Below, one piece after another: positions 7,665 through 50,617 of a DNA stretch of 64,000 nucleotides. The stretch comes from Nitrosomonadales bacterium (GTDB lineage: Bacteria; Pseudomonadota; Gammaproteobacteria; Burkholderiales; Gallionellaceae), in contig JACPYR010000004.1 in the NCBI GenBank assembly GCA_016195965.1, positions 1-64,000 on the forward strand, written 5' to 3'. The position numbers were made by a program, and so were the translations under genes. Position 1 is the first letter of the stretch; each line of letters starts with the position of its first letter. Below the pieces are notes generated by a model. The model saw only the letters and a program-made list of their open reading frames with translations. It had not been told where the DNA came from and searched no databases.

Positions 7665-7849
7665 CTAGTGTAGTGTTGCATTCTGTTTGGAACTTAACTT
7701 CTTCTGTGGGAGCGGCTTTAGCCGCGATGCTGACAGTGAAATCCAGCGGCCAATCGCGGCTAAAGCCGCTCCCACAACTAAAGCCGCTCCCACAAAGGAC
7801 TTGCTTGATAACTCCATTAAGTTTCATCATCAGTGCAACACTACACTAG
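7665..7849. mobile_element. MITE-like element, copy 1 (185 bp)
   Basis: A perfect 16-base terminal inverted repeat (CTAGTGTAGTGTTGCA at 7665-7680 and its complement at 7834-7849) bounds a non-coding element. CTAG stands at both outer ends and may be a 4-base target duplication. The interior holds a REP-type palindrome, GTGGGAGCGGCTTTAGCCGC and its inverted copy. This copy is 18 bases longer than the other two because the right REP arm is partly duplicated in tandem (CTAAAGCCGCTCCCACA twice). It lies between the response regulator gene and its probable kinase gene. Open frames crossing it are artefacts. Confidence 0.85.
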
Positions 7850-7863
7850 CAATTCGATGCGGC

Positions 7864-8481
7864 TCAAGCGACTAAACCCAGGCGGCGCGCGGCAAACACC
7901 GCCTCCGATCGGCTGGATACCTGCAAGAGTCCCAATATTGCCTGTACATGCCCGCGCACGGTATTTTCCGAAAGGTTTAACTGGCGCGCAATCAGCTTGT
8001 TTGACAGTCCTTTGCACAGCAGCTCGAGTACTTCGCATTGGCGCGGAGTCAAGTGCTGGAGCGCGTCAGTGTCATCGCTGACCCCTTCCGCTTGAGCGGT
8101 TAGCTCGGCGAATTCCCCTCGCAGCACCAGATTGATCGACGCCATGATTTTATCTGCCGTGTCCGCCTTGGAGACGAAGCCTATTGCTCCGCGGGTGAGC
8201 GCCAGGCGAACGGTTTCCGGTTCATCCTGGGACGACAGCATGATCACGGGAACTTGCGGCCATTTGCGCTTCAGCAATGCAATACCTTCCAGGCCGTTCA
8301 GGCCGGGCAGCTTGATGTCCAGCAGCATGACGTTTAGCGCTTCCGGAGCATCCTGCATGGCTTCGTTAAGGGAGCCTGCCTCAAACACTTCCGCGTCAGG
8401 CATGCCCGCGTTCAGCACCATGCGCAGTCCCGAGCGGAACATAGCATGGTCATCAATCAACAGGATGCGGGTAGAAAACAT
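7864..8481 (-). CDS. NarL/LuxR-family response regulator
   Basis: The 205-residue protein joins a receiver domain (D10-D11, phospho-acceptor D55 in MLLDIKLPG, a lysine in FVSKAD) to a C-terminal LuxR-type helix-turn-helix beginning LTPRQCEVLELLCKGLSNKLIA and ending with NTVRGHVQAIL. It binds DNA as a phosphorylation-dependent dimer. Gene order (regulator then hybrid kinase, same strand) suggests they form one two-component system, interrupted by the MITE-like element. It is divergent from a second NarL-type regulator across a 301-base gap. Target genes are not known; the dsr promoter nearby is one candidate by position only. Confidence 0.92.
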   Translation of the reverse strand: MFSTRILLIDDHAMFRSGLRMVLNAGMPDAEVFEAGSLNEAMQDAPEALNVMLLDIKLPGLNGLEGIALLKRKWPQVPVIMLSSQDEPETVRLALTRGAIGFVSKADTADKIMASINLVLRGEFAELTAQAEGVSDDTDALQHLTPRQCEVLELLCKGLSNKLIARQLNLSENTVRGHVQAILGLLQVSSRSEAVFAARRLGLVA

Positions 8482-8782: not shown

Positions 8783-9475
8783 ATGTTCTTGAAGATGACG
8801 GTTGGCAGCATTCGTGTTGTGCTCATCGATGATCACAAGAGTATGCTCTGGGGTTTGGAGAGGCTCATCGACAGCCAAAGTCCAAAAATGCAAGTGGTTG
8901 GGAAATTCACCAGCCATGCCGAAGCATCTGCCCATATAAAAAAACTATCCCCCGACGTCATCCTGCTGGATCTTGATCTGGGCGATGAGCACGGCCTGGA
9001 TATCATTCCGCAGCTGGTCTTTCATATGCAGGCAAAAATTCTGGTCTTGACCGGCGCGCGCGATGCGATGCTGCTTGACAAGGCCTTGATTGCCGGAGCA
9101 AAAGGCGTCGTCGAAAAAGGGGAACCCGTTGAAACAATTCTGGCTGCCATTGAGCGGGTGCATAGTGGTCAGTTGTGGATGGACCAAGGCAGGATGGGCA
9201 GAATCATCATAGAGCTGTGCCGCCAAAAATCACTCGAAGAAAATGATCCTGACCGCAAGAAAATAGCATCGCTTACCCCGAGAGAGCGTGAGATTGTGAA
9301 GGCCGTAACTTCCCGTTCCGGGACAACCTGCATTGATGTTGCGAAAGAGCTGCGTGTCAGCGAGAGCACTTTGCGCAATCACCTCAGCTCTATTTACTCC
9401 AAGCTTGACCTGACCAACCGCCTGGAACTCTGGGAGTTCGCGCATAAACATGCGTTGAACGGCGCAGTCCGATAA
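8783..9475 (+). CDS. NarL/LuxR-family response regulator (second)
   Basis: The 230-residue protein has a receiver domain with D16-D17, phospho-acceptor D63 in VILLDLDLGDEHG and a lysine in VVEKGEP, then a linker of about 30 residues and a LuxR-type helix-turn-helix (LTPREREIVKAV ... STLRNHLSSIYSKLDL). The start at 8783 is preceded by GAGAG; the ATG at 8795 is an alternative with GAAG upstream. No kinase is adjacent on this strand, so it is either an orphan or a second output of the hybrid kinase. It is convergent with the TauD-like gene. Confidence 0.88.
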   Translation: MFLKMTVGSIRVVLIDDHKSMLWGLERLIDSQSPKMQVVGKFTSHAEASAHIKKLSPDVILLDLDLGDEHGLDIIPQLVFHMQAKILVLTGARDAMLLDKALIAGAKGVVEKGEPVETILAAIERVHSGQLWMDQGRMGRIIIELCRQKSLEENDPDRKKIASLTPREREIVKAVTSRSGTTCIDVAKELRVSESTLRNHLSSIYSKLDLTNRLELWEFAHKHALNGAVR

Positions 9476-9517: not shown

Positions 9518-10402
9518 TTAAGTCCGCGATGTTGCTGCGATCCTGTCATGGTAGCGCGCGCGGAACAGCAGGCGCGGGGCATTGGTGTTGTCAATAAAGG
9601 CGGCACGCTCATGCAGCACGTTGTTGCACAGCAGCCCCATGCCGGGTTCCAGGCGCAGGCGGTGGATGTGCGGTGAATTCGAGGCGAGCAGTTGTTCCAG
9701 CATCGCGACCGCGGCCCGCGTGGCATCGTCCTGCTTCCATTCGATGCTGCGGGTGCGCGCGGTATAGCGCATGTGCAGCGCGCCGCTTTTATCCAGCGAA
9801 AACACCGGGCCGGTCTGCGCTGCGCGCGCCACGCCATGTTCGTCGGTGCGTTCCGGGATGGTCATCGCATCCGGTGCGGACAGCGCGCGGATGAAATCGC
9901 TGCTTGCGTCACGCAGCATCAGGTAAGCGATCTCGTGATCCAGCAATCGGTTTTCGCCGCCTTGCCCGGCGCTGTGCAGGCAATGCAATATCATGCCGCG
10001 CACCTGACGATCGGGCGTATTGTAATAGCCATCGGTATGCCATTTGATCGCGCGGTCGGTGTAGGGGATATAGGCCTGGCGCTGGCCTTCGTTCTTGCAT
10101 ACGGTAATGCGGGTGATGCCCTGTTCGCCCGCCAGCCAGTTGGCATCCAGGCTATTTAGCCCGAACTGCTGTCCGAGTTGGCGCACCATGTCCTCATCAA
10201 CCCGCTCTGTGTGGGTGGCATAGATGGCCATGTTGCTGCGCCGGCAGCGTTCCAGCAGTGCCGTATGTTCGGATGGGGTCAGCGCACGGGGATCGTTGAT
10301 TTCGACGATCAGCTTGGCGGTGCCGGTGATCGCGTTTTCCAGCTTGCGCTCTCGCCAGCGCTGGTAGGCACTGTCATTATCCAGGTCGAATGGGGATGGC
10401 AT
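9518..10402 (-). CDS. TauD/TfdA-family Fe(II)/2-oxoglutarate dioxygenase
   Basis: The 294-residue protein carries the facial triad of the family: H122 and D124 in KWHTDGYY and the distal H264 in NNVLHERAAF. R277 in PRLLFRARYH is the likely 2-oxoglutarate anchor. Family members hydroxylate a wide range of substrates, including taurine and alkylsulfonates, but the substrate here cannot be predicted. It is the last gene of the minus-strand satellite group, three bases after the 198-residue unknown protein, so it is probably co-transcribed with it and with the TusA-like gene. That neighbourhood suggests an organosulfur substrate, as inference only. Confidence 0.85.
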   Translation of the reverse strand: MPSPFDLDNDSAYQRWRERKLENAITGTAKLIVEINDPRALTPSEHTALLERCRRSNMAIYATHTERVDEDMVRQLGQQFGLNSLDANWLAGEQGITRITVCKNEGQRQAYIPYTDRAIKWHTDGYYNTPDRQVRGMILHCLHSAGQGGENRLLDHEIAYLMLRDASSDFIRALSAPDAMTIPERTDEHGVARAAQTGPVFSLDKSGALHMRYTARTRSIEWKQDDATRAAVAMLEQLLASNSPHIHRLRLEPGMGLLCNNVLHERAAFIDNTNAPRLLFRARYHDRIAATSRT

Positions 10403-10405
10403 GAC

Positions 10406-11002
10406 TCAATCTCCGCTGGTGACTTTGCGGGTGCGAGTTGGCCTGGGTTCTGATTCATAAAGATTGCGCATGGTTGCTTCCACCATCTCCACGGCTTCCG
10501 GCGCCGCTATGCTCATCATCTGGTCTATCACCCATTCGACATCTTTTTCATCCATGACTTCGCGCATGCAGTAGGCGAGATAACGGGTAAAGGCGAATTC
10601 GGGGCCATCGCTGCCGTAGTTGAAATCGGCGTATTCTCCGGCGCGCTGGTTGAGTATGTCGATGAAGCGCTGCTTGTGTGCGGCGAGACTGTTGCCCATC
10701 AAACGGCTTTGATTTTCGGCGAGGGTTTCCGCGACGCGATTGGCCAGCGTGCTGGTGAAGGTATAGCGGTCTTCGGCGGATAACTGGCGATGGGCGACTC
10801 GATCTGCGACCTGGACCAGAAACACCAGAAATTCGGTGAGAAATGAAAAGTACTGCGGGCCGATCGCGATCTCGAAATTCGCCTTGCGGGTATTTTTGAG
10901 CGCGTTGTCGGCGATGCGCCAGATGGTAAATGCCAAGGCCCCTGCAACTTCCTGCGGTGATTTTTCGCGGTCAGCCTTGAACCAGTGGCTTTTGATGCGC
11001 AT
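10406..11002 (-). CDS. Conserved helical protein of unknown function next to dsr
   Basis: I do not recognise a named family in this 198-residue protein. It has no signal peptide or membrane segment, is predicted to be mostly helical, and has a single cysteine (in YLAYCMREV). The central part is rich in aromatic and acidic residues and the C-terminus is basic (RPTRTRKV). It lies between the two-domain TusA gene (17 bases upstream) and the TauD-like gene (3 bases downstream), so an operon with both is likely and a role in sulfur metabolism is plausible by context. Confidence 0.7.
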   Translation of the reverse strand: MRIKSHWFKADREKSPQEVAGALAFTIWRIADNALKNTRKANFEIAIGPQYFSFLTEFLVFLVQVADRVAHRQLSAEDRYTFTSTLANRVAETLAENQSRLMGNSLAAHKQRFIDILNQRAGEYADFNYGSDGPEFAFTRYLAYCMREVMDEKDVEWVIDQMMSIAAPEAVEMVEATMRNLYESEPRPTRTRKVTSGD

Positions 11003-11019: not shown

Positions 11020-11511
11020 TTAACGCCAGCCCTTTTGCAGGTAGAACTCATACTCGCCAGCGGACACTTCGACGGTGCTGACGATTTTGACTCCCGTTGT
11101 GTTTGCCCAGCCCACGATGTCGGATCGGATGCCGGGGCAGTTGCTGACCAGCTTGAGAATTTCGCCTGAATTCATGCCGTTCAACAGTTTCTTTGCTTCC
11201 ACGATGGGGCCCGGGCAAACCACGCCGCGTATGTCGAGAATGACATGCGCCTTGAGCGCTTCTCCCTGGCCTTTCATGACGTAGTAACCTGTGCCGCCAT
11301 CCGGCATGCTTTCGGTTTTTAATACTTTGTTATGGGTCTGTTCGGCCCAGGAAAAGAGATCGTCCCTGGTGCCGGGGCAGTCGGAGATCAATAACAATAC
11401 TTGTTCGTTTTTCAGGTCGTCGACCACGCGCTTGGCACCGAGCAGCGGTGCGGGGCAGGTCAGGCCACGCATATCCAGCGTGACATTGGCGTGCAGGTCT
11501 TGAGTGTTCAT
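11020..11511 (-). CDS. Two-domain TusA-like sulfur carrier protein
   Basis: The 163-residue protein consists of two TusA (SirA) domains in tandem. Each has the strand-CPxP signature: DMRGLTCPAPLL with C19 and DIRGVVCPGPIV with C99. Each also has a second cysteine in a matching position, SDCPGTRDD (C45) and SNCPGIRSD (C125). TusA proteins carry sulfane sulfur as a persulfide on the CPxP cysteine and deliver it to DsrE in sulfur oxidisers or to TusBCD in tRNA thiolation. A fused pair with four cysteines suggests intra-chain sulfur transfer or a two-site carrier. The location beside dsr supports a role in feeding sulfur to DsrEFH. Confidence 0.88.
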   Translation of the reverse strand: MNTQDLHANVTLDMRGLTCPAPLLGAKRVVDDLKNEQVLLLISDCPGTRDDLFSWAEQTHNKVLKTESMPDGGTGYYVMKGQGEALKAHVILDIRGVVCPGPIVEAKKLLNGMNSGEILKLVSNCPGIRSDIVGWANTTGVKIVSTVEVSAGEYEFYLQKGWR

Positions 11512-11544: not shown

Positions 11545-11711
11545 CTAGTGCAGTGTTGCATTCTGTTTGGAATTTAACTTTTCCTGTGGGAGCGGCTTTA
11601 GCCGCGATTGGCCGCTCGATTTTACTGCCTGCATCGCGGCTAAAGCCGCTCCCACAAAGGACTTGCTTGATAGCTCCATTAAGTTTCATCAACAGTGCAA
11701 CACTACACTAG
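11545..11711. mobile_element. MITE-like element, copy 2 (167 bp)
   Basis: The element has the same ends as copy 1, with one mismatch in the left terminal repeat (CTAGTGCAGTGTTGCA), CTAG at both outer edges, and the same internal REP-type palindrome. Its interior is very similar to copy 1 apart from the loop between the REP arms and the extra arm copy. It is inserted between the two-domain TusA gene and the RspA-like gene, ending one base before the stop codon of the latter. Confidence 0.85.
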
Positions 11712-11712
11712 T

Positions 11713-12042
11713 TTAATATCCACCCTTGCCATAAGGCTGCGGCAGGCCGGCCACCTTTGCGCCTTGCTTGGCCGGGCCGGTCGGAAATAAATCATACAGG
11801 GCTTTGCTGTCTGCCTCCGGCCAGAATTCATTGACGCCCTTCAGCATATTGCGGAAATTGGGCGTATGCCCATGTTCGCGGTACTGCTCGCGCATGTAGT
11901 TGATGACCTGCCAATGCCGGGGCGTTAGCTCTATACCTTCAGCCGCAGCGATGACATTCGCGGTTTCTTCGCTGAAATCTGGCTCCAGCAAATATCCGTC
12001 GGCGTCGGTTTCCAGTTCATTGCCCGCGATAATGTATCCCAT
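11713..12042 (-). CDS. DsrC/TusE-family paralog without cysteines (RspA-like)
   Basis: The 109-residue protein aligns along its length with the DsrC encoded at 16741 (start MGYIIAGNELETDADGYL, middle TPRHWQVINYMREQYREHG, end PAKQGAKVAGLPQPYG). Both redox cysteines of DsrC are missing: the penultimate cysteine is lost in the YGKGGY tail and the other is alanine in KQGAKVAGL. DsrC-family proteins lacking both cysteines have been called RspA and proposed to be regulatory. The ATG at 12042 has a strong GAAGGAG upstream. It follows the Cas6-like gene by 28 bases, so the two are probably co-transcribed. Confidence 0.88.
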   Translation of the reverse strand: MGYIIAGNELETDADGYLLEPDFSEETANVIAAAEGIELTPRHWQVINYMREQYREHGHTPNFRNMLKGVNEFWPEADSKALYDLFPTGPAKQGAKVAGLPQPYGKGGY

Positions 12043-12070: not shown

Positions 12071-12682
12071 TCAGCCCTCACTCAAGCCAGAAATGACCTT
12101 GTAAGGAACAAAAATGCCGCAACCAAATTGTCTGCCTTCTCCCAGCCCGGTATATTGCAGCTGCAGCGAGGCTGCGGGTGACAGGTCGTGTATCACCAGG
12201 CTGTATCCCTGCAAGACTTGCTGGTCACCGCTGATGGTGTGCCGCTTGCCGCAGATCAGCTTGCCCTTGATCTGCATTTCTGCCAGTTGGGCTTGAATGT
12301 GTTCCACAAACATCACCTCGTCGCTGACGCCGGTGACCTGTTGCGCGTGTATCGTGGGGTAGGGCTGGATGGGTCTGGCCTTTGCCGTTCCCAGCCGCAG
12401 GGGGCTTCCTGCGATATCGAGTTGATGTCCGGTCAGGCGTGCGGCAATATGCTCTGCCAGCAGGGTCGGCAAGCGCATCGCCAGTTTGGCGCGCTTGGGC
12501 AACAGGAGGTTCTCGTTGTTTCCGGTTCCGCGCAGCGGTAGTATCCCGGCAGATTTTTCTGCGCTGAGTTCGGGTATATGGCGTATCAGCGCCGCCCATA
12601 GCGCAAAGGGATACGCGGCGGGAAGTGTCCCGCCGTCGAGATCGAACACCATGTCGATCATCTCTGGAGCCGGATTAGACAT
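12071..12682 (-). CDS. Orphan Cas6/Cmx6-family (type I-MYXAN type) RNA-binding protein
   Basis: The 203-residue protein matches the Cas6/Cmx6 family from end to end: an N-terminal EMIDMVFDLDGGTLP, a middle RAKLAMRLP and a C-terminal glycine-rich loop GLGEGRQFGCGIFVPYK typical of RAMP-fold Cas6 endoribonucleases. In CRISPR systems these proteins cut precursor crRNA at repeat hairpins. No CRISPR array and no other cas gene occurs in this window. The gene is instead embedded between a 70-residue unknown (3-base gap) and the RspA-like gene, next to the dsr operon. Whether it is still a ribonuclease cannot be told; a histidine is present in CGKRHTISG. Confidence 0.82.
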   Translation of the reverse strand: MSNPAPEMIDMVFDLDGGTLPAAYPFALWAALIRHIPELSAEKSAGILPLRGTGNNENLLLPKRAKLAMRLPTLLAEHIAARLTGHQLDIAGSPLRLGTAKARPIQPYPTIHAQQVTGVSDEVMFVEHIQAQLAEMQIKGKLICGKRHTISGDQQVLQGYSLVIHDLSPAASLQLQYTGLGEGRQFGCGIFVPYKVISGLSEG

Positions 12683-12898: not shown

Positions 12899-13245
12899 GA
12901 TAATTTCCTCTCGTTTTGGTTTAGCCGCAACCCTCATCAGGGTATTCTGAACGAGAATCAGTAACGGCTTAAGTTTATCGTTAATATACTTGTTTTTGAA
13001 ATACTACCGGGGGAAACAAAATACTACCCTTAAGGGTTATAAACGATAGCCGCTTAGGGTGATGGAATGCGCAAGATGATATATCGTAGTATGCTAATAC
13101 ACTAAAGAACATGGGCTGACCGCAAGATATAGCAAATGTAGCCCGCATGCGTAACCGTGTAACAAGCCCCGCCTCTGTCGGGTTATTATTGAATCGTTTG
13201 CCAGCAGTCAGCCCCAGGCGACCGCGACTAAAAGGAGATCTTATT
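12899..13245. promoter_or_regulatory. Divergent dsr control region with direct repeats
   Basis: This 347-base gap separates the dsr operon from the satellite group. AAATACTACC occurs twice at 12999-13008 and 13019-13028, exactly 20 bases (two helical turns) apart. A reverse-orientation core GTAGTAT follows at 13086-13092. The second repeat runs into a perfect 12-base palindrome ACCCTTAAGGGT at 13026-13037. This looks like an activator-binding array. A strong Shine-Dalgarno site AAAGGAG precedes dsrA. I could not assign a sigma-70 promoter with confidence. Confidence 0.5.
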
Positions 13246-14544
13246 ATGGCCAAGAAGATGCATGATACCCCGAACCTCGATCAGCTTGAGGATGGTCCGT
13301 GGCCCAGTTTTGTGACCGGCTTGAAAGAGCTGGCCAAGGATAAGGATTACGTCGTCGATCTGTTGGGTCAACTCGAAACCTCGTACCGAACCAAGAAAGG
13401 TTACTGGAAAGGCGGCACGGTAGGTGTATTCGGTTATGGCGGCGGTGTGATTCCGCGCTTTACCGAACTCAAGGATGACAAAGGTCAGCCGGTCTACAAG
13501 GATTGTGCGGAATTTCATACGCTGCGCGTGATGCCTCCGCCCGGCATGCACTATGACACCAAGGTGTTGCGCGACATGTGCGACATCTGGGAGAAGCATG
13601 GCTCGGGCTTGATCGCCTTCCACGGCCAGTCCGGCGACATCATGTTCCAGGGGGCGACCACGGACAACGTGCAAAAAGCCTTCGATGAAATCAATGAGCT
13701 GGGTTTCGATCTGGGCGGCGCAGGCCCTGCGGTGCGTACTTCGATGTCCTGCGTGGGTGCGGCGCGTTGCGAGCAGTCCTGTTACGACGAGGCATCGGCT
13801 CATCGTACCGTGTTGAATACTTTTCTGGACGACATTCATCGTCCTTCTTTGCCGTATAAATTCAAGTTCAAATTCTCCGGTTGTCCGAACGATTGCATGA
13901 ATTCGGTGCAGCGCGCCGACATGGCCGTGATCGGCACCTGGCGCGACAACATCCGTACCGACGAGGCGCTGGCGAAAAAATGGTTTGCCAAGCACGGCAT
14001 GGGCGAGTTGGTGAATGACGTGGTGGCGCGTTGCCCGACCAAGACGTTCCAGTTGAAGGAAATCAAGAACGTCAAGAAGGGCGACAGCATTTCCAGCGTG
14101 GCCGTCAGCGACACCCATGCGGTCGAAATCGACAACCGCGATTGCGTGCGCTGCATGCACTGCATCAATGTGATGACCGGCGCACTGGCTCCCGGTAAAG
14201 ACAAGGGCGCGACGATACTGGTGGGCGGCAAGCGCACCCTGAAGATCGGCGACCTGATGGGCACCGTGGTTATCCCGTTCATGAAGCTGGAAACAGATGA
14301 AGATCGCGAAAAGCTGGTCGATCTCGGTCAGCGCATCATCGACTTCTTTGCGGAAAATGCGCTTGAGCACGAGCGCACCGGCGAGATGATCGAGCGCATC
14401 GGTCTGGTGAATTTCCTGGAGGCATTGGAAATCCCGGTGGATCCGAACATGGTGACGACTCCGCGCATGAATCCTTACGTCCGCACCGATGGCTGGGACG
14501 AGGAAGTTGCCAAAATCAATGCAAAAAAATTAGCCGCAGCCTGA
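13246..14544 (+). CDS. dsrA: Reverse dissimilatory sulfite reductase alpha subunit
   Basis: The 432-residue protein starts MAKKMHDTPNLDQLE; the ATG at 13246 was chosen over an upstream in-frame ATG because of the strong AAAGGAG site and family length. The siroheme-[4Fe-4S] cysteines are in CVGAARCEQSC and FSGCPNDCMNS, and a ferredoxin-type domain with CVRCMHCINVM lies between about residues 275 and 340. With DsrB it forms an alpha2beta2 cytoplasmic enzyme. Linkage to dsrEFH and dsrL marks the oxidative type, which turns the DsrC-bound persulfide into sulfite. It is the first gene of the dsr operon. Confidence 0.97.
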   Translation: MAKKMHDTPNLDQLEDGPWPSFVTGLKELAKDKDYVVDLLGQLETSYRTKKGYWKGGTVGVFGYGGGVIPRFTELKDDKGQPVYKDCAEFHTLRVMPPPGMHYDTKVLRDMCDIWEKHGSGLIAFHGQSGDIMFQGATTDNVQKAFDEINELGFDLGGAGPAVRTSMSCVGAARCEQSCYDEASAHRTVLNTFLDDIHRPSLPYKFKFKFSGCPNDCMNSVQRADMAVIGTWRDNIRTDEALAKKWFAKHGMGELVNDVVARCPTKTFQLKEIKNVKKGDSISSVAVSDTHAVEIDNRDCVRCMHCINVMTGALAPGKDKGATILVGGKRTLKIGDLMGTVVIPFMKLETDEDREKLVDLGQRIIDFFAENALEHERTGEMIERIGLVNFLEALEIPVDPNMVTTPRMNPYVRTDGWDEEVAKINAKKLAAA

Positions 14545-14555
14545 GGAGAGAAGAG

Positions 14556-15653
14556 ATGAATCAAGCCGTTCAAGCTGACAAGCCCGCCGCAAAACGCAAG
14601 CCGAAAGAAACCGGCGTTCCCGATAACAAGCAGTACCTGCATCCGTTGCTGGCCAAGAACTACGGCGACTGGAAGTATCACGACCGTCCCCGTCCCGGCG
14701 TGCTGCATCACGTCGCGCACAGCGGCGACCAGGTGTGGTCGGTGCGCGCCGGTACGCAGCGCCAGATGGACGTGGGCACGATACGCAAACTTTGCGATAT
14801 CGCCGACAAATATGCGGAAGGCCACGTGCGCTTCACGATACGTTCCAACATCGAGTTCATGGTGTCGAAGGCAGAGAAGGTCGATCCGCTGATCGCCGAA
14901 CTGGAAAAGCATGGCTTCCCGGTGGGCGGCACCGGCAACTCGATTTCGATGATCGCCCATACGCAAGGCTGGCTGCACTGCGACATTCCGGGCACGGATG
15001 CATCCGGCGTGGTCAAGGCGCTGATGGACGAATTGATCGTGGAATTCAAGCGCGAGGAAATGCCTAACCGCGTGCATCTTTCCACGTCCTGTTGCGAGAT
15101 CAACTGCGGCGGCCAGGCAGACATCGCGATCATCGTGCAGCACACCAAGCCGCCGGTGATCAACCATGATCTGGTCGCCAACGTGTGCGAGCGTCCGACC
15201 GTGGTGGCGCGTTGCCCGGTGGCGGCGATCCGTCCGGCGATGGTGAATGGCAAGCCTTCGCTGGAAATCGATGAGTCCAAGTGCATGTGCTGCGGTGCGT
15301 GCTATCCGCCCTGTCCGCCGATGCAGATCAATGATCCGGAAAATTCCAAGCTGGCGATCTGGGTGGGCGGCAAGAATTCCAATGCGCGTGGCAAGCCGAC
15401 CTTCATGAAGATGGTCGCCTCCGGTCTGCCCAACAATGCGCCGCGTTGGCCCGAGGTCAACGAGGTGGTGAAGAAGATATTGCATGTTTACAAGGAAGAT
15501 GCGCGTCCCTGGGAGCGCATGGCTGACTGGATCGAGCGCATCGGCTGGCCGCGCTTCTTCGAGAAGACCGAATTGCCGTTCACCAAGTATCTGATCGACG
15601 ACTGGCGCGGTTCGCGTGCGACCTTCAATGCGTCTACGCATATCCGCTTCTGA
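14556..15653 (+). CDS. dsrB: Reverse dissimilatory sulfite reductase beta subunit
   Basis: The 365-residue protein is the paralog and partner of DsrA. Conserved cysteines are in STSCCEINCGG, and the inserted ferredoxin domain has the ligand set SKCMCCGACYPPCPPM. DsrB provides the siroheme ligands for the catalytic site at the alpha-beta interface. It follows dsrA by 11 bases with GAGGAGAGAAGAG upstream. The opposite strand also shows a long open frame, which is a shadow of the codon usage here. Length and composition match DsrB of sulfur oxidisers. Confidence 0.97.
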   Translation: MNQAVQADKPAAKRKPKETGVPDNKQYLHPLLAKNYGDWKYHDRPRPGVLHHVAHSGDQVWSVRAGTQRQMDVGTIRKLCDIADKYAEGHVRFTIRSNIEFMVSKAEKVDPLIAELEKHGFPVGGTGNSISMIAHTQGWLHCDIPGTDASGVVKALMDELIVEFKREEMPNRVHLSTSCCEINCGGQADIAIIVQHTKPPVINHDLVANVCERPTVVARCPVAAIRPAMVNGKPSLEIDESKCMCCGACYPPCPPMQINDPENSKLAIWVGGKNSNARGKPTFMKMVASGLPNNAPRWPEVNEVVKKILHVYKEDARPWERMADWIERIGWPRFFEKTELPFTKYLIDDWRGSRATFNASTHIRF

Positions 15654-15667
15654 GGCGAGGTGACTGC

Positions 15668-16027
15668 ATGAAATTCGGAATCGTTGTTAACGAAGGGCCT
15701 TACCAGCATCAATCCAGCGATACGGCCTATCTGTTCTGCAAGGCTGCGATAGAAAAAGGCCATGAAGTTTGGCGGGTGTTTTTTTATCACGATGGCGTGA
15801 ACAACGCATCGAAATTGACCGAGCCGCCGCAGGACGACCGGCATATCGTGAATCGCTGGAGCAAGCTCAATGAGGAGCATGGCGTGGATCTGGTGGTTTG
15901 CGTTGCTGCGGCTTTGCGCCGGGGCATCAAGGAAGAAAACCTGGCCCAGGGTTTCCGGATTTCCGGGCTGGGGCAGCTGGTGGAGGCGGGCGTCAAGTGT
16001 GACCGTCTGGTTACCTTTGGCGATTGA
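15668..16027 (+). CDS. dsrE: Sulfur transferase subunit DsrE
   Basis: The 119-residue protein belongs to the DsrE/TusD family. Cysteine 78 in DLVVCVAAALRRG matches the persulfide-carrying cysteine of DsrE from purple sulfur bacteria. DsrE joins DsrF and DsrH in an alpha2beta2gamma2 complex that accepts sulfur from TusA-type donors and passes it to DsrC. The DsrEFH set is found in sulfur oxidisers and not in sulfate reducers, so it fixes the direction of the pathway. It is 14 bases after dsrB. Confidence 0.96.
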   Translation: MKFGIVVNEGPYQHQSSDTAYLFCKAAIEKGHEVWRVFFYHDGVNNASKLTEPPQDDRHIVNRWSKLNEEHGVDLVVCVAAALRRGIKEENLAQGFRISGLGQLVEAGVKCDRLVTFGD

Positions 16028-16036
16028 GGAGCGTAT

Positions 16037-16402
16037 ATGAGCGATATCAAGAAATTCATGTTCGTCAACCGCAAAGCGCCGCACGGCACGATCTACGCGC
16101 TGGAGTCGCTGGAGGTGGTGCTGATCACCGCCGCTTTCGACCAGGATGTTTCTCTGGTATTTGTTGACGATGGCGTATACCAGCTGAAGAAAGGCCAGCA
16201 GACCAAGGGCATCGCAACCAAAAACTTTTCACCCGCATATCGCGCGCTGGAAGGTTACGACATCGAGAAGCTGTATGTCGAAAAGGAATCAATGGAGGCT
16301 CGCGGCCTCAGCGAGGAAGATTTGCTGGTGGATGTGACCGTGCTGGGGCGCGCAGAAATGGGCGAATTGATGGATCGGCAAGACGTGGTCTTGAGCTTTT
16401 AA
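16037..16402 (+). CDS. dsrF: Sulfur relay subunit DsrF
   Basis: The 121-residue protein is of the DsrE/F-like fold (TusC type). It begins MSDIKKFMFVNRKAPHGTIYA, a typical DsrF start, and lacks the active cysteine expected only in DsrE and DsrH. It acts as a structural subunit of the DsrEFH hexamer. The gene has AGGAG shortly before its ATG and lies nine bases after dsrE. Confidence 0.95.
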   Translation: MSDIKKFMFVNRKAPHGTIYALESLEVVLITAAFDQDVSLVFVDDGVYQLKKGQQTKGIATKNFSPAYRALEGYDIEKLYVEKESMEARGLSEEDLLVDVTVLGRAEMGELMDRQDVVLSF

Positions 16403-16416
16403 GGGAGAACCGTTAA

Positions 16417-16713
16417 ATGTTGCATATCATCAATAAATCCCCAATGACGAATAGCGCTCTTGACAGTTGTTTGCGCGTCGCCCAATCAGGGGATATTCTG
16501 CTGATCGAAGACGCGGTCTATGCGGTTACTTCCGGCAATGTGTTCGAGAGTAGGATGCGCGAGGCAATGGGGCGTTTCAATATATATGTGTTACAACCTG
16601 ACCTTGAGGCGCGCGGGTTTGCGGATCGCCTCATCGGAGGCGTGTCGTCTGTCGATTACGGTGGTTTTGTCGATCTCACCGCGTCCAATAAAAGTTGCCA
16701 ATCCTGGCTCTAA
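16417..16713 (+). CDS. dsrH: Sulfur relay subunit DsrH
   Basis: The 98-residue protein is of the DsrH/TusB family. It starts MLHIINKSPMTNSALDSC, and C18 corresponds to the conserved cysteine near residue 20 of DsrH. It completes the DsrEFH complex. It lies 14 bases after dsrF with AGGGAG as ribosome binding site and is followed by dsrC after a gap of 27 bases. Confidence 0.95.
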   Translation: MLHIINKSPMTNSALDSCLRVAQSGDILLIEDAVYAVTSGNVFESRMREAMGRFNIYVLQPDLEARGFADRLIGGVSSVDYGGFVDLTASNKSCQSWL

Positions 16714-16740
16714 CCTGCATTTATTAAAAGGAGAATTACC

Positions 16741-17076
16741 ATGGCCAATATCGAAGTTGACGGCAAAACATACGAAACCGATGAAGAGGGTTACCTCGTC
16801 AATCTGGCTGACTGGAACACGGCAGTTGCCAATTACATCGCCAAGACCGAAAACGTCGAGATGACCGAGCAGCACTGGGAAGTGATCAACTTCCTGCGCG
16901 AATATTTTGAAGAATACCAGATCGCGCCGGCCGTCCGTGTGTTGACCAAGGCGATAGGCAAAAAACTGGGCGCGGAGAAGGGCAACAGCGAGTATCTGTA
17001 CGGCCTGTTTCCATATGGCCCAGGCAAGCAGGCTTGCAAGATCGCCGGATTGCCCAAGCCGACCGGTTGCGTATAA
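16741..17076 (+). CDS. dsrC: DsrC sulfur carrier protein
   Basis: The 111-residue protein has the full DsrC C-terminal arm: KQACKIAGLPKPTGCV, with cysteines at 99 and 110 separated by ten residues. These two cysteines carry the persulfide or form the trisulfide on which DsrAB and DsrMKJOP act. This distinguishes it from the cysteine-less paralog at 11713. It has a strong AAAGGAG site. A quasi-palindrome made of heptamers separates it from dsrM, which may allow a separate, abundant dsrC transcript end. Confidence 0.97.
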   Translation: MANIEVDGKTYETDEEGYLVNLADWNTAVANYIAKTENVEMTEQHWEVINFLREYFEEYQIAPAVRVLTKAIGKKLGAEKGNSEYLYGLFPYGPGKQACKIAGLPKPTGCV

Positions 17077-17083
17077 AGAAGCC

Positions 17084-17151
17084 GGATTGAGGATCGAGGA
17101 TCGAGCTTGGCTCGCCTCAATCTTCAATCCTCAATCCTCAATCCTCAATCC
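17084..17151. repeat. Heptamer-built quasi-palindrome between dsrC and dsrM
   Basis: The left arm has three heptamers (GGATTGA, GGATCGA, GGATCGA at 17084-17104) and the right arm five copies of TCAATCC or TCAATCT in tandem (17117-17151), which are the reverse complement of the left unit. In RNA this forms a long, slippable hairpin with several alternative registers. It ends three bases before dsrM, whose start has no clear Shine-Dalgarno site. Confidence 0.8.
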
Positions 17152-19416: not shown

Positions 19417-19551
19417 ATGGCCTACGAAAAAAAACATAGTCCACTAAAGACACGAAAATCACGAACAACTGCGGAAATCCGGTTCTGGATTTTTTCGTGT
19501 GTTTCGTGCTTTTCGTGGACTGAATATCAGGTAACCATCTGGAGGTAGCGC
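19417..19551 (+). CDS. Doubtful 44-codon ORF across the dsrK-dsrL repeat
   Basis: An ATG at 19417, with GGAG 11 bases upstream, opens a frame of 44 codons ending in TAG just before dsrL. Its start, MAYEKKHSPLK, looks protein-like but most of the frame is the translation of the quasi-palindrome at 19438-19521. It may be translated to couple dsrK and dsrL, or be the remnant of a gene start displaced by the repeat. I give it low confidence. Confidence 0.15.
19438..19521. repeat. Quasi-palindrome between dsrK and dsrL (CACGAAA words)
   Basis: AGTCCAC at 19438-19444 pairs with GTGGACT at 19515-19521, and inside each arm short CACGAA/TTCGTG words recur (GACACGAAAATCACGAA on the left, TTCGTGTGTTTCGTGC and TTTTCGTGG on the right). 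This forms a long imperfect hairpin in the mRNA. It belongs to the same structural class as the elements at 21541 and 17084 although the words differ. Confidence 0.8.
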
Positions 19552-21520: not shown

Positions 21521-21540
21521 AGGATAAAATCTTAATTCTG

Positions 21541-21626
21541 GCCACAGAGAACACAGAGGCCACCGAGAGAGCGCGACCTCGTAATCAATGGATTGTTTTC
21601 TCTGTGTCCTCTGTGATCTCTGTGGC
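21541..21626. repeat. Quasi-palindrome between dsrL and dsrJ (CACAGAG words)
   Basis: GCCACAGAGA at 21541-21550 pairs with TCTCTGTGGC at 21617-21626. The arms contain repeated CACAGAG and CTCTGTG words (three on each side). Like the other dsr gaps, this would fold into a long imperfect hairpin inside the operon transcript. Confidence 0.8.
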
Positions 21627-48227: not shown

Positions 48228-48632
48228 GGCAAATTATTTGGTTATGAGAAACGTGCGAATTGTACGCCGAGCACGGGATGTGCGAAAGGAGTGACGCATG
48301 GTCGGCTCTGGATAGGCGACGAATCATTCCGGTGAATTTGACCCGCACATGATGCGCCATGAAAACTGCACCGCGAAAAAGTGCGCTAAACTAGCGTAAC
48401 GTTGCACTGTTGATTAAACTGAATGAAGTTATCGAGCAAGTCCTTTGTGGGAGCGGCTTTAGCCGCGAAACGGACAGTAAACTCGAGCTACCAATCGCGG
48501 CTGAAGCCGCTCCCACTGGAGAAGTTAAGTTCCAAACAGAATGCAACACTAAACTAGACTCGGTTGTATCGCCGTATATTCGATTTTCTGTCATGCCGTT
48601 AGTCCAATCCTGTATAGAAAGAGCCAGCCACA
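48228..48632. other. Divergent region between gspG and protease gene
   Basis: This 405-base gap carries MITE-like copy 3 (48391-48557). The gspG side (48228-48390) is not coding and presumably holds the gsp promoter, but I could not assign a convincing -35/-10 pair. The 75 bases before the protease start contain no feature I can name. Confidence 0.5.
48391..48557. mobile_element. MITE-like element, copy 3 (167 bp, inverted, diverged)
   Basis: This copy is in the opposite orientation to copies 1 and 2 and more diverged (left end CTAGCGTAACGTTGCACTGT, right end ATGCAACACTAAACTAG). CTAG is again at both outer edges, and the internal REP palindrome and the TCAAGCAAGTCCTTTGTGG-like segment (here with GAGCAAG) are kept. 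It lies in the divergent region between gspG and the protease gene. Confidence 0.8.
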
Positions 48633-50556: not shown

Positions 50557-50617
50557 GTGGGAGCGGCTTTAGCCGCGACAAGGCATGTGTTGTAATCGCG
50601 GCTAAAGCCGCTCCCAC
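50557..50617. repeat. REP-type inverted repeat
   Basis: GTGGGAGCGGCTTTAGCCGC begins at 50557 and its complement ends at 50617 (about 22 paired bases in each arm, loop of 17). Each arm is itself partly palindromic. This is the same REP sequence as inside the MITE-like elements, here without their terminal repeats. It lies between the protease and the propeptide-like gene and could act as an mRNA hairpin. Confidence 0.85.

Follow-up and report, generated by a model that had tools for sequence, protein, structure and literature searches.

An orphan Cas6-family protein associated with dsr sulfur oxidation loci in Gammaproteobacteria

Results

A Cas6-family gene lies head-to-head with dsrA

The window, by which we mean the whole 64-kb stretch of DNA that was analysed, contains a minus-strand set of genes in the order DUF6967, Cas6-like protein, DsrC paralog, double TusA protein, 198-aa protein and TauD-like dioxygenase (Table 1). 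The plus-strand dsrA begins at 13246, so this minus-strand module is divergent from it, and the gene coordinates agree with the original prediction, in which the Cas6-like gene was co-directional and nearly contiguous with a 70-residue protein and a cysteine-less DsrC paralog. On the plus strand, dsrB, dsrE, dsrF and dsrH are named from position and conserved order, without a profile match of their own, while canonical DsrC matches PF04358 at E 1.8e-47.

Table 1. Features of the window discussed in the text
Feature	Position	Strand	Evidence or remark
Inverted-repeat element GTGGGAGCGGCTTTAGCCGCGAT, four copies	7706-7775; ~11585-11656; 48447-48516; 50557-50617		second copy between the DsrC paralog and double TusA genes
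LuxR/NarL-type response regulators, two	7864-8481; 8783-9475
TauD-like 2-oxoglutarate dioxygenase	9518-10402	minus	PF02668 E 2e-18
198-aa protein	10406-11002	minus	no Pfam or NCBIfam match; similar ORFs in the same gene order in Gallionellaceae
Double TusA-domain protein	11020-11511	minus	PF01206, two stretches
Cys-less DsrC paralog ending KGGY	11713-12042	minus	28 nt downstream of the Cas6-like gene; PF04358 E 1.2e-33; TIGR03342
Orphan Cas6-family (RAMP) protein, 203 aa	12071-12682	minus	ORF, PF09559, TIGR02807
Glycine-rich loop GLGEGRQFGCGIF, residues 179-191	12110-12148	minus	low model confidence (block means 60, 44)
H165	12188-12190	minus	in 47/47 Tyr24-type and 2/49 His24-type sequences
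Y24, start of helix a1	12611-12613	minus	His in most CRISPR-linked relatives and in the other half of the dsr clade
DUF6967 protein, 70 aa	12686-12898	minus	3 nt upstream of the Cas6-like gene; PF22295 E 2.9e-31
Divergent spacer, DUF6967 to dsrA	12899-13245		alignment of 41 distinct Gallionellaceae spacers
dsrA, head-to-head with the Cas6 operon	13246-14544	plus	TIGR02064, 505.6 bits (cut-off 392.85)
dsrB, dsrE, dsrF, dsrH, canonical dsrC (C-terminus GCV)	14556-17076	plus	ORFs
Hairpins in dsr gaps	17084-17151; 19442-19517; 21540-21626		first in the dsrC-dsrM gap

The genes upstream of Cas6 vary among loci, many of which end early: DUF6967 is found at 50/112, a TauD-like gene at 38/112 and a TPR-like gene at 22/112. 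DUF6967 is present in 89 of 158 Gallionellaceae genomes, and its AlphaFold2 model consists of four strands and a helix (beta4-alpha; pLDDT 90). We rejected a PUR-repeat fold for this protein: PUR repeats are the nearest shapes, but at a non-significant Foldseek E of ~0.5. In many other families the TauD-like gene lies upstream of Cas6, unlike its downstream placement in the window. The TPR-like protein (~230 aa; L096 10290-10997, L097 10344-11054, L107 1190-1870) has no significant Pfam match.

The protein belongs to the Cas6 family

Profile matches and a predicted fold together make membership of the protein in the Cas6 family firm. PF09559 is the sole Pfam family to match at E <=1 (E 2.2e-53; 181.5 bits against a cut-off of 26.7), aligning residues 9-195 with profile positions 1-190 of 191, and TIGR02807 is likewise the sole NCBIfam family, at 141.1 bits against an equivalog cut-off of 98.85; six Cas6 models of PADLOC also match. 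The Cas6/Cmx6 likeness along the whole length that had been predicted is thereby borne out, including the glycine-rich loop GLGEGRQFGCGIFVPYK at residues 179-195, and no profile places the protein in a different family. In an alignment of 63 proteins, 57 dsr-linked and six CRISPR-linked, every member has a TIGR02807 match at E 1e-20 or lower; a pass of the curated cut-off is established for the window protein, the other members being given by E-value.

An AlphaFold2 model built with 17 sequences (mean pLDDT 77.8, pTM 0.75) contains two tandem RAMP/ferredoxin-like domains and the glycine-rich loop, with confidence falling from about residue 181 on (block means 60, 44 and 33), a stretch that covers the loop and the C-terminus. 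Its best structural match is the Cas6 of a type I-B CAST (8fcj_B; VIA-align Z 21.6 over 192 residues; Foldseek E 1.4e-17, TM ~0.8), and the next-best structures are other Cas6 proteins, those of Pyrococcus furiosus included (VIA-align Z 12-14.5). Compared with five relatives, the gene has a dN of 0.14-0.23 and a dS of 1.03-1.66, the latter near saturation, and the resulting dN/dS of ~0.11-0.15 indicates purifying selection.

The gene stands apart from CRISPR

As the original prediction held, there is no CRISPR-like repeat array in the 64-kb window, and no cas1; elsewhere the genome does carry CRISPR. Its one Cas1 match lies on another contig (C46), in a type I-C locus (L083 8585-17535) comprising cas3c, cas5c, cas8c, cas7c, cas4 and cas1c with an array of eight copies. 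PF09559 has a single match in the source genome, whose assembly is 83% complete, and the identified neighbours of this match are dsr, DsrC-, TusA- and TauD-like genes rather than the cas3, cas8, cas7, cas5 and array of a type I-MYXAN system.

Because the protein matches over its full length above the equivalog cut-off in a genome that has an array, we considered whether it might still function as a CRISPR Cas6 in trans, serving arrays at other sites in the genome. This is very unlikely. The type I-C locus, the one CRISPR locus found in this genome, has its own Cas5c, and a passage of PMC3652601 describes type I-C systems as having no cas6 and using Cas5d instead. Moreover, cas1, the cas family searched, is absent from 18 of 25 complete or near-complete genomes bearing the gene, hand-chosen from earlier lists of gene-bearing genomes, among them all five genomes of 1.0-1.1 Mb. 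Across Gallionellaceae the two families are not associated (33 genomes with both PF09559 and cas1, 55 with Cas6 only, 33 with cas1 only, 37 with neither; p 0.26), and the protein belongs to a clade separate from its CRISPR-linked relatives, as described below. A Cse2-like identity for the gene 5' of Cas6 at one locus (L090) was rejected at E 0.018, below the cut-off. No phage-borne copies were found in the phages or viral_contigs collections, the viral_contigs scan being one that detects close relatives only.

Co-occurrence and conserved linkage with dsrA

The association between the Cas6-like gene and dsr is real, and larger than the original prediction supposed. In a class-wide sample of 369 genomes, scoring dsrA at E 1e-60 or better, 110 carry both PF09559 and dsrA, eight Cas6 only, seven dsrA only and 244 neither (odds ratio 479, p 1.5e-74 in a Fisher test uncorrected for relatedness). 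Where both genes lie on one contig (82 genomes), they are head-to-head and at most 6 kb apart in 80, the exceptions being G266 (41 kb apart) and G482 (517 kb apart). Homologs that were always CRISPR-linked and showed no conserved dsr linkage would have spoken against the original prediction; instead, the linkage is conserved far beyond the source genome. In each of the eight Cas6-only genomes the sequence upstream of Cas6 reaches the contig end within 2.6 kb, with G284, rated 100% complete, a possible case of Cas6 without dsrA. Six of the seven dsrA-only genomes have dsrA at a contig edge, the seventh (G368) showing no Cas6 across 10.8 kb of sequence upstream of dsrA.

In 28 genomes the two genes are on separate contigs, and in 16 of these 5 kb or more of upstream sequence is free of dsrA, so we count them as truly unlinked. 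Together with G266 and G482 they make 18 genomes in which the Cas6-like gene is kept away from dsrA. The Cas6-DsrC pair is kept in six of the 16 unlinked genomes, the DsrC paralog not adjoining in the other ten.

The same joint presence and absence is seen inside Gallionellaceae, where 85 of 158 genomes have both genes, three Cas6 only, two dsrA only and 68 neither, and where dsrA is on the opposite strand and no more than 8 kb away at 86 of 91 Cas6 loci. The dsrA rows behind this tally were hand-picked. They comprise the full-length matches together with G062 and three partial genes (G153, G152 and G143); weak dsrB-like and other sulfite-reductase matches were dropped, as was a partial dsrA at the start of a contig in G113 (E 2.4e-34), a genome with no Cas6, whose inclusion would give 85/3/3/67. 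One of the genomes scored as Cas6-only, G127, has a cut dsrA adjoining Cas6.

Beyond the class the picture differs. A phylum-wide draw found PF09559 in 5 of 398 genomes (G000 included), all from the window's own order, and these five include none of the 45 genomes from outside the class that carry dsrA; the 45 come from a 200-genome draw with dsrA in 46, which probably lies within the 398. The protein is therefore not present wherever dsrA is, and the Dsr pathway has no general need for it. The module seems confined to one class, Gammaproteobacteria in the GTDB sense, Betaproteobacteria included.

This restriction to one class, combined with Fisher tests that are uncorrected for relatedness, is what would be expected of a passenger of the dsr locus that has no sulfur role and is kept by shared ancestry and physical linkage. 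We regard a passenger as quite improbable, given the joint presence and absence with dsrA inside a single family, the retention of the gene in 18 genomes away from dsrA and in five genomes of 1.0-1.1 Mb, and the low dN/dS.

A separate clade with its own conserved residues

A tree of 72 proteins separates the CRISPR set (nine rows; SH-aLRT 99) from all 63 dsr-clade proteins. The root probably lies on the CRISPR side, in which case the lineage would have moved from CRISPR to dsr, with His24 as the older state. The nine CRISPR-set rows include a Cas6/Cmx6 from a Gloeobacter morelensis plasmid (L128, 5974-6765) that has no annotated cas gene near it over 12.6 kb, perhaps another orphan, which lies two genes upstream of a PAPS-reductase-family protein.

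The two groups share the glycine-rich loop: G179, G181, C188, G189 and F191 are conserved at 99-100% in the dsr set and in 7-8 of 8 CRISPR-linked sequences, G187 at 98% and in 6/8, and R70 is nearly invariant as well. What sets the dsr-linked proteins apart is E122 (96/96 versus 0/8), R64 (96/96 versus 2/8), G145 (95/96 versus 0/8) and K195 (94/96, with none shown in CRISPR-linked sequences).

The presumed active site is divided within the dsr clade. Passages of PMC3652601 report a catalytic His in helix a1 of TtCas6e and PaCas6f, which our alignment would place at position 24. CRISPR-linked proteins have Asp-His at 23-24, with His24 in 6/8 (one sequence is without its N-terminus and the CAST protein has Asn); among dsr-linked sequences 49/96 have His24, in all 49 cases preceded by Asp or Glu, and 47/96 have Tyr24, as the window protein does. 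In the active-site alignment that the original proposal called for, the loop residues and R70 are conserved and the presumed catalytic His is replaced by Tyr in the window. Because some true Cas6 proteins are without the catalytic His, SsoCas6 being described so in PMC3652601, Tyr24 is compatible with Cas6 membership.

All Tyr24 proteins form one clade (support 100), and position 165 changes along with position 24: the His165 of the Tyr24 proteins corresponds to Ala in 44 of 49 His24 proteins. Two proteins from other families of the window's order (L079 and L080) have both His24 and His165, and a third (L081) has His24 with Asn165; all three fall outside the main His24 clade, and the tree does not settle their branching order relative to the Tyr24 clade.

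The two groups also differ in charge, with a pI of 9.2-10.2 in the nine CRISPR-set rows against a median of 6.1 in the dsr clade and 7.06 in the window protein. This drop argues against strong nonspecific RNA binding; RNA binding or cleavage by the protein is suggested by its fold and its conserved residues. The main rival to the RNA-binding regulator that we favour below is a Cas6 fold that has lost its use of RNA and become a protein-binding scaffold, which with the Cys-less DsrC regulates or assembles the Dsr sulfur relay. The lost basic charge, the disappearance of the presumed catalytic His in Gallionellaceae, the new conserved R64, E122, G145 and K195 outside the glycine-rich loop, and the frequent pairing with the DsrC paralog would all suit such a scaffold, but the near-invariance of the loop and R70, and of Asp/Glu-His at 23-24 in 49/49 His24 sequences, speak against it, and on balance we consider it somewhat unlikely.

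A KGGY-ended DsrC paralog is the frequent downstream neighbour

Of 110 loci whose downstream sequence runs to 500 nt or more, 96 have a DsrC paralog on the same strand no more than 400 nt downstream of Cas6; some genomes are counted twice in this tally under two names, and the profile used for scoring drew in part on these loci. Among the 14 loci without one, L062 and L110 miss by the distance or overlap limit alone. All 96 paralogs end in KGGY, in contrast to the GCV end of canonical DsrC, and Cys is found at the upstream Cys position in 4/96; the window paralog has no Cys, and so lacks the C-terminal Cys pair of a sulfur-carrier DsrC. Speculatively, such an end of Gly-Gly plus one residue is reminiscent of thiocarboxylate-type sulfur carriers.

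DsrC is homologous to TusE of the tRNA thiolation relay, according to a passage of PMC3397948, and a double-TusA protein is encoded downstream on the same strand. One could therefore imagine a link between the Dsr relay and tRNA, in which the Cas6 fold binds tRNA and the DsrC and TusA relatives tune 2-thiouridine, much as TusE does with MnmA. The KGGY ending of 96/96 paralogs, with no C-terminal Cys, the linkage to dsrA, and the lack of a recognised tRNA-modification gene among the neighbours identified in a partial annotation make this an improbable account.

Candidate RNA targets and the divergent spacer

The original prediction proposed three strong hairpins in the dsr transcript, given without coordinates, as possible substrates; we take these to be the three listed in Table 1. 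They are real: each is an inverted repeat built of short tandem units, lies in a dsr gap and differs from the other two. As substrates of the Cas6-like protein they are unsupported, because they are missing from most relatives compared. The dsrC-dsrM gap, to which the folding comparison was confined, is readable in 13 of 14 relatives: in ten it spans 22-58 nt with little structure, and in three (L040, L046 and L088) it spans 72-98 nt and is well folded. Structured inserts occur in other dsr gaps of L032 and L044 (dsrB-dsrE) and L044 (dsrH-dsrC), and the repeat motifs of the hairpins are seen again at no more than three of the 17 relative loci L032-L048 and at one of the 116 others. The parts of the original interpretation that are supported are Cas6 family membership, orphan status and wide dsr linkage.

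Two further RNA candidates were rejected. A hairpin in the dsrA leader (~13167-13183) recurs in position among relatives, with some compensatory change by eye, and its stability is no better than that of dinucleotide shuffles; low folding z-scores are not counted as RNA evidence, since they derive from energies of -3 to -4 kcal/mol and in part from the palindromic operator. The 24-bp perfect inverted repeat next to the DsrC paralog belongs to an element present four times in the window. No RNA target of the Cas6-like protein was found among the dsr hairpins and the dsrA-leader hairpin.

The divergent spacer itself contains a strongly conserved block (~12997-13065; AATACTAC..GGGG ... ACCCTTAAGGGTTA ... 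GATAGCCGCTAAGGGTGATGG), with AATACT[A/G]C in 40 and GGGTTA in 34 of the 41 distinct spacers, and within it the palindrome ACCCTTAAGGGT. From its sequence this block looks more like an operator, on which the LuxR/NarL-type regulators encoded in the window may act.

Discussion

The dsr-linked Cas6-fold proteins form a single orphan clade that stands outside CRISPR and is part of the reverse-Dsr locus. Here, we tentatively propose that these proteins are RNA-binding regulators of dsr that work together with a Cys-less DsrC. In this model, a Cas6 lineage would have moved from CRISPR to the reverse-Dsr locus and may have retained RNA binding, and the protein would form a regulatory module with the DsrC paralog and, in the window's lineage, DUF6967. 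The module may bind a specific RNA, either one from the dsr regulon or a tRNA, and the half of the clade that bears His24 may also cut it, such that dsr expression would track sulfur supply. The Cys-less DsrC, unable to carry a persulfide in the usual way, could compete with DsrC for partners and thereby couple the module to sulfur state.

Several observations favour this RNA regulator: the family and fold, the co-occurrence with dsrA at class and family level, the lack of association with cas1 in Gallionellaceae, the single clade with its own marks at E122, G145 and R64, the pairing with a KGGY-ended DsrC, purifying selection, retention both in the 18 genomes where dsrA is unlinked and in the five genomes of 1.0-1.1 Mb, which lack cas1, and Asp/Glu-His at 23-24 in every His24 sequence. 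Against it stand the lack of an RNA target among the candidates compared, the fall in pI, Tyr at position 24 in the window's clade, the absence of PF09559 from 45 dsrA genomes outside the class, and the ten of 16 unlinked genomes in which the DsrC paralog does not adjoin. We nonetheless favour the RNA regulator over the protein scaffold.

A bolder form of this proposal, which we offer still more tentatively, is that Cas6 left CRISPR once and, with the KGGY-ended DsrC, became an RNA-based sulfur-responsive module (processing, riboregulatory or tRNA-directed) across Gammaproteobacteria, and that the Gallionellaceae active site was rebuilt by a shift of His from position 24 to 165, the L079 and L080 proteins of the same order still having both. 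In Allochromatium vinosum (A. vinosum) growing on sulfide, transcripts of dsrEFH and dsrC exceed those of dsrA, according to a passage of PMC3397948 citing Grimm et al. 2010. Such an imbalance would fit transcript processing, and other explanations exist.

Our data suggest that a Cas6-like protein has been borrowed from CRISPR for sulfur metabolism. In a literature search we found no description of a link between Cas6 and dsr in the passages retrieved, including those on Cas6 and on dsr in PMC10952691, PMC7540712, PMC5728499 and PMC11636981. If the link is functional, sulfur oxidation by rDsr gains, in one large class, a component that we did not find described in the literature searched, and RNA biology enters a pathway regarded as protein chemistry. 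The system also lends itself to testing, with one gene, one neighbour and one divergent promoter. There is a practical consequence for annotation as well: since the model that bears the name 'type I-MYXAN CRISPR-associated protein Cas6/Cmx6' matches 57 of 57 dsr-linked sequences scanned, their genomes are likely credited with CRISPR parts that are absent.

Comparison with known systems

Among the nearest known counterparts are the type I-MYXAN Cas6/Cmx6 proteins of cyanobacterial plasmids, which belong to the same TIGR02807/PF09559 family, are 25-30% identical to the window protein and share its glycine-rich loop and R70. In the CRISPR-linked cases annotated cas8 and cas5 adjoin Cas6/Cmx6 in all seven loci fetched, and cas3 also in six of seven; these proteins carry a strong basic charge and their loop contains GGK or GGR, whereas the dsr-linked clade is distinguished by E122, G145, K195, a near-neutral pI and dsr-type neighbours. 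The type I-B CAST Cas6 (PDB 8fcj/8fcu), the best structural match, differs in being part of a Cascade-transposon complex and in having Asn at position 24. More distant is the archaeal Pyrococcus furiosus Cas6 3ufc, which shares the Cas6 fold (VIA-align Z 13.3) and is not known to be linked to sulfur metabolism; it is described as non-catalytic in a passage of PMC3652601. On the sulfur side, the downstream neighbour of Cas6 belongs to the TusE/DsrC/DsvC family (PF04358/TIGR03342), from whose typical members it differs by its missing C-terminal Cys and its invariant KGGY end. This family includes a Cys-less 'RspA', a name that did not turn up in a literature search.
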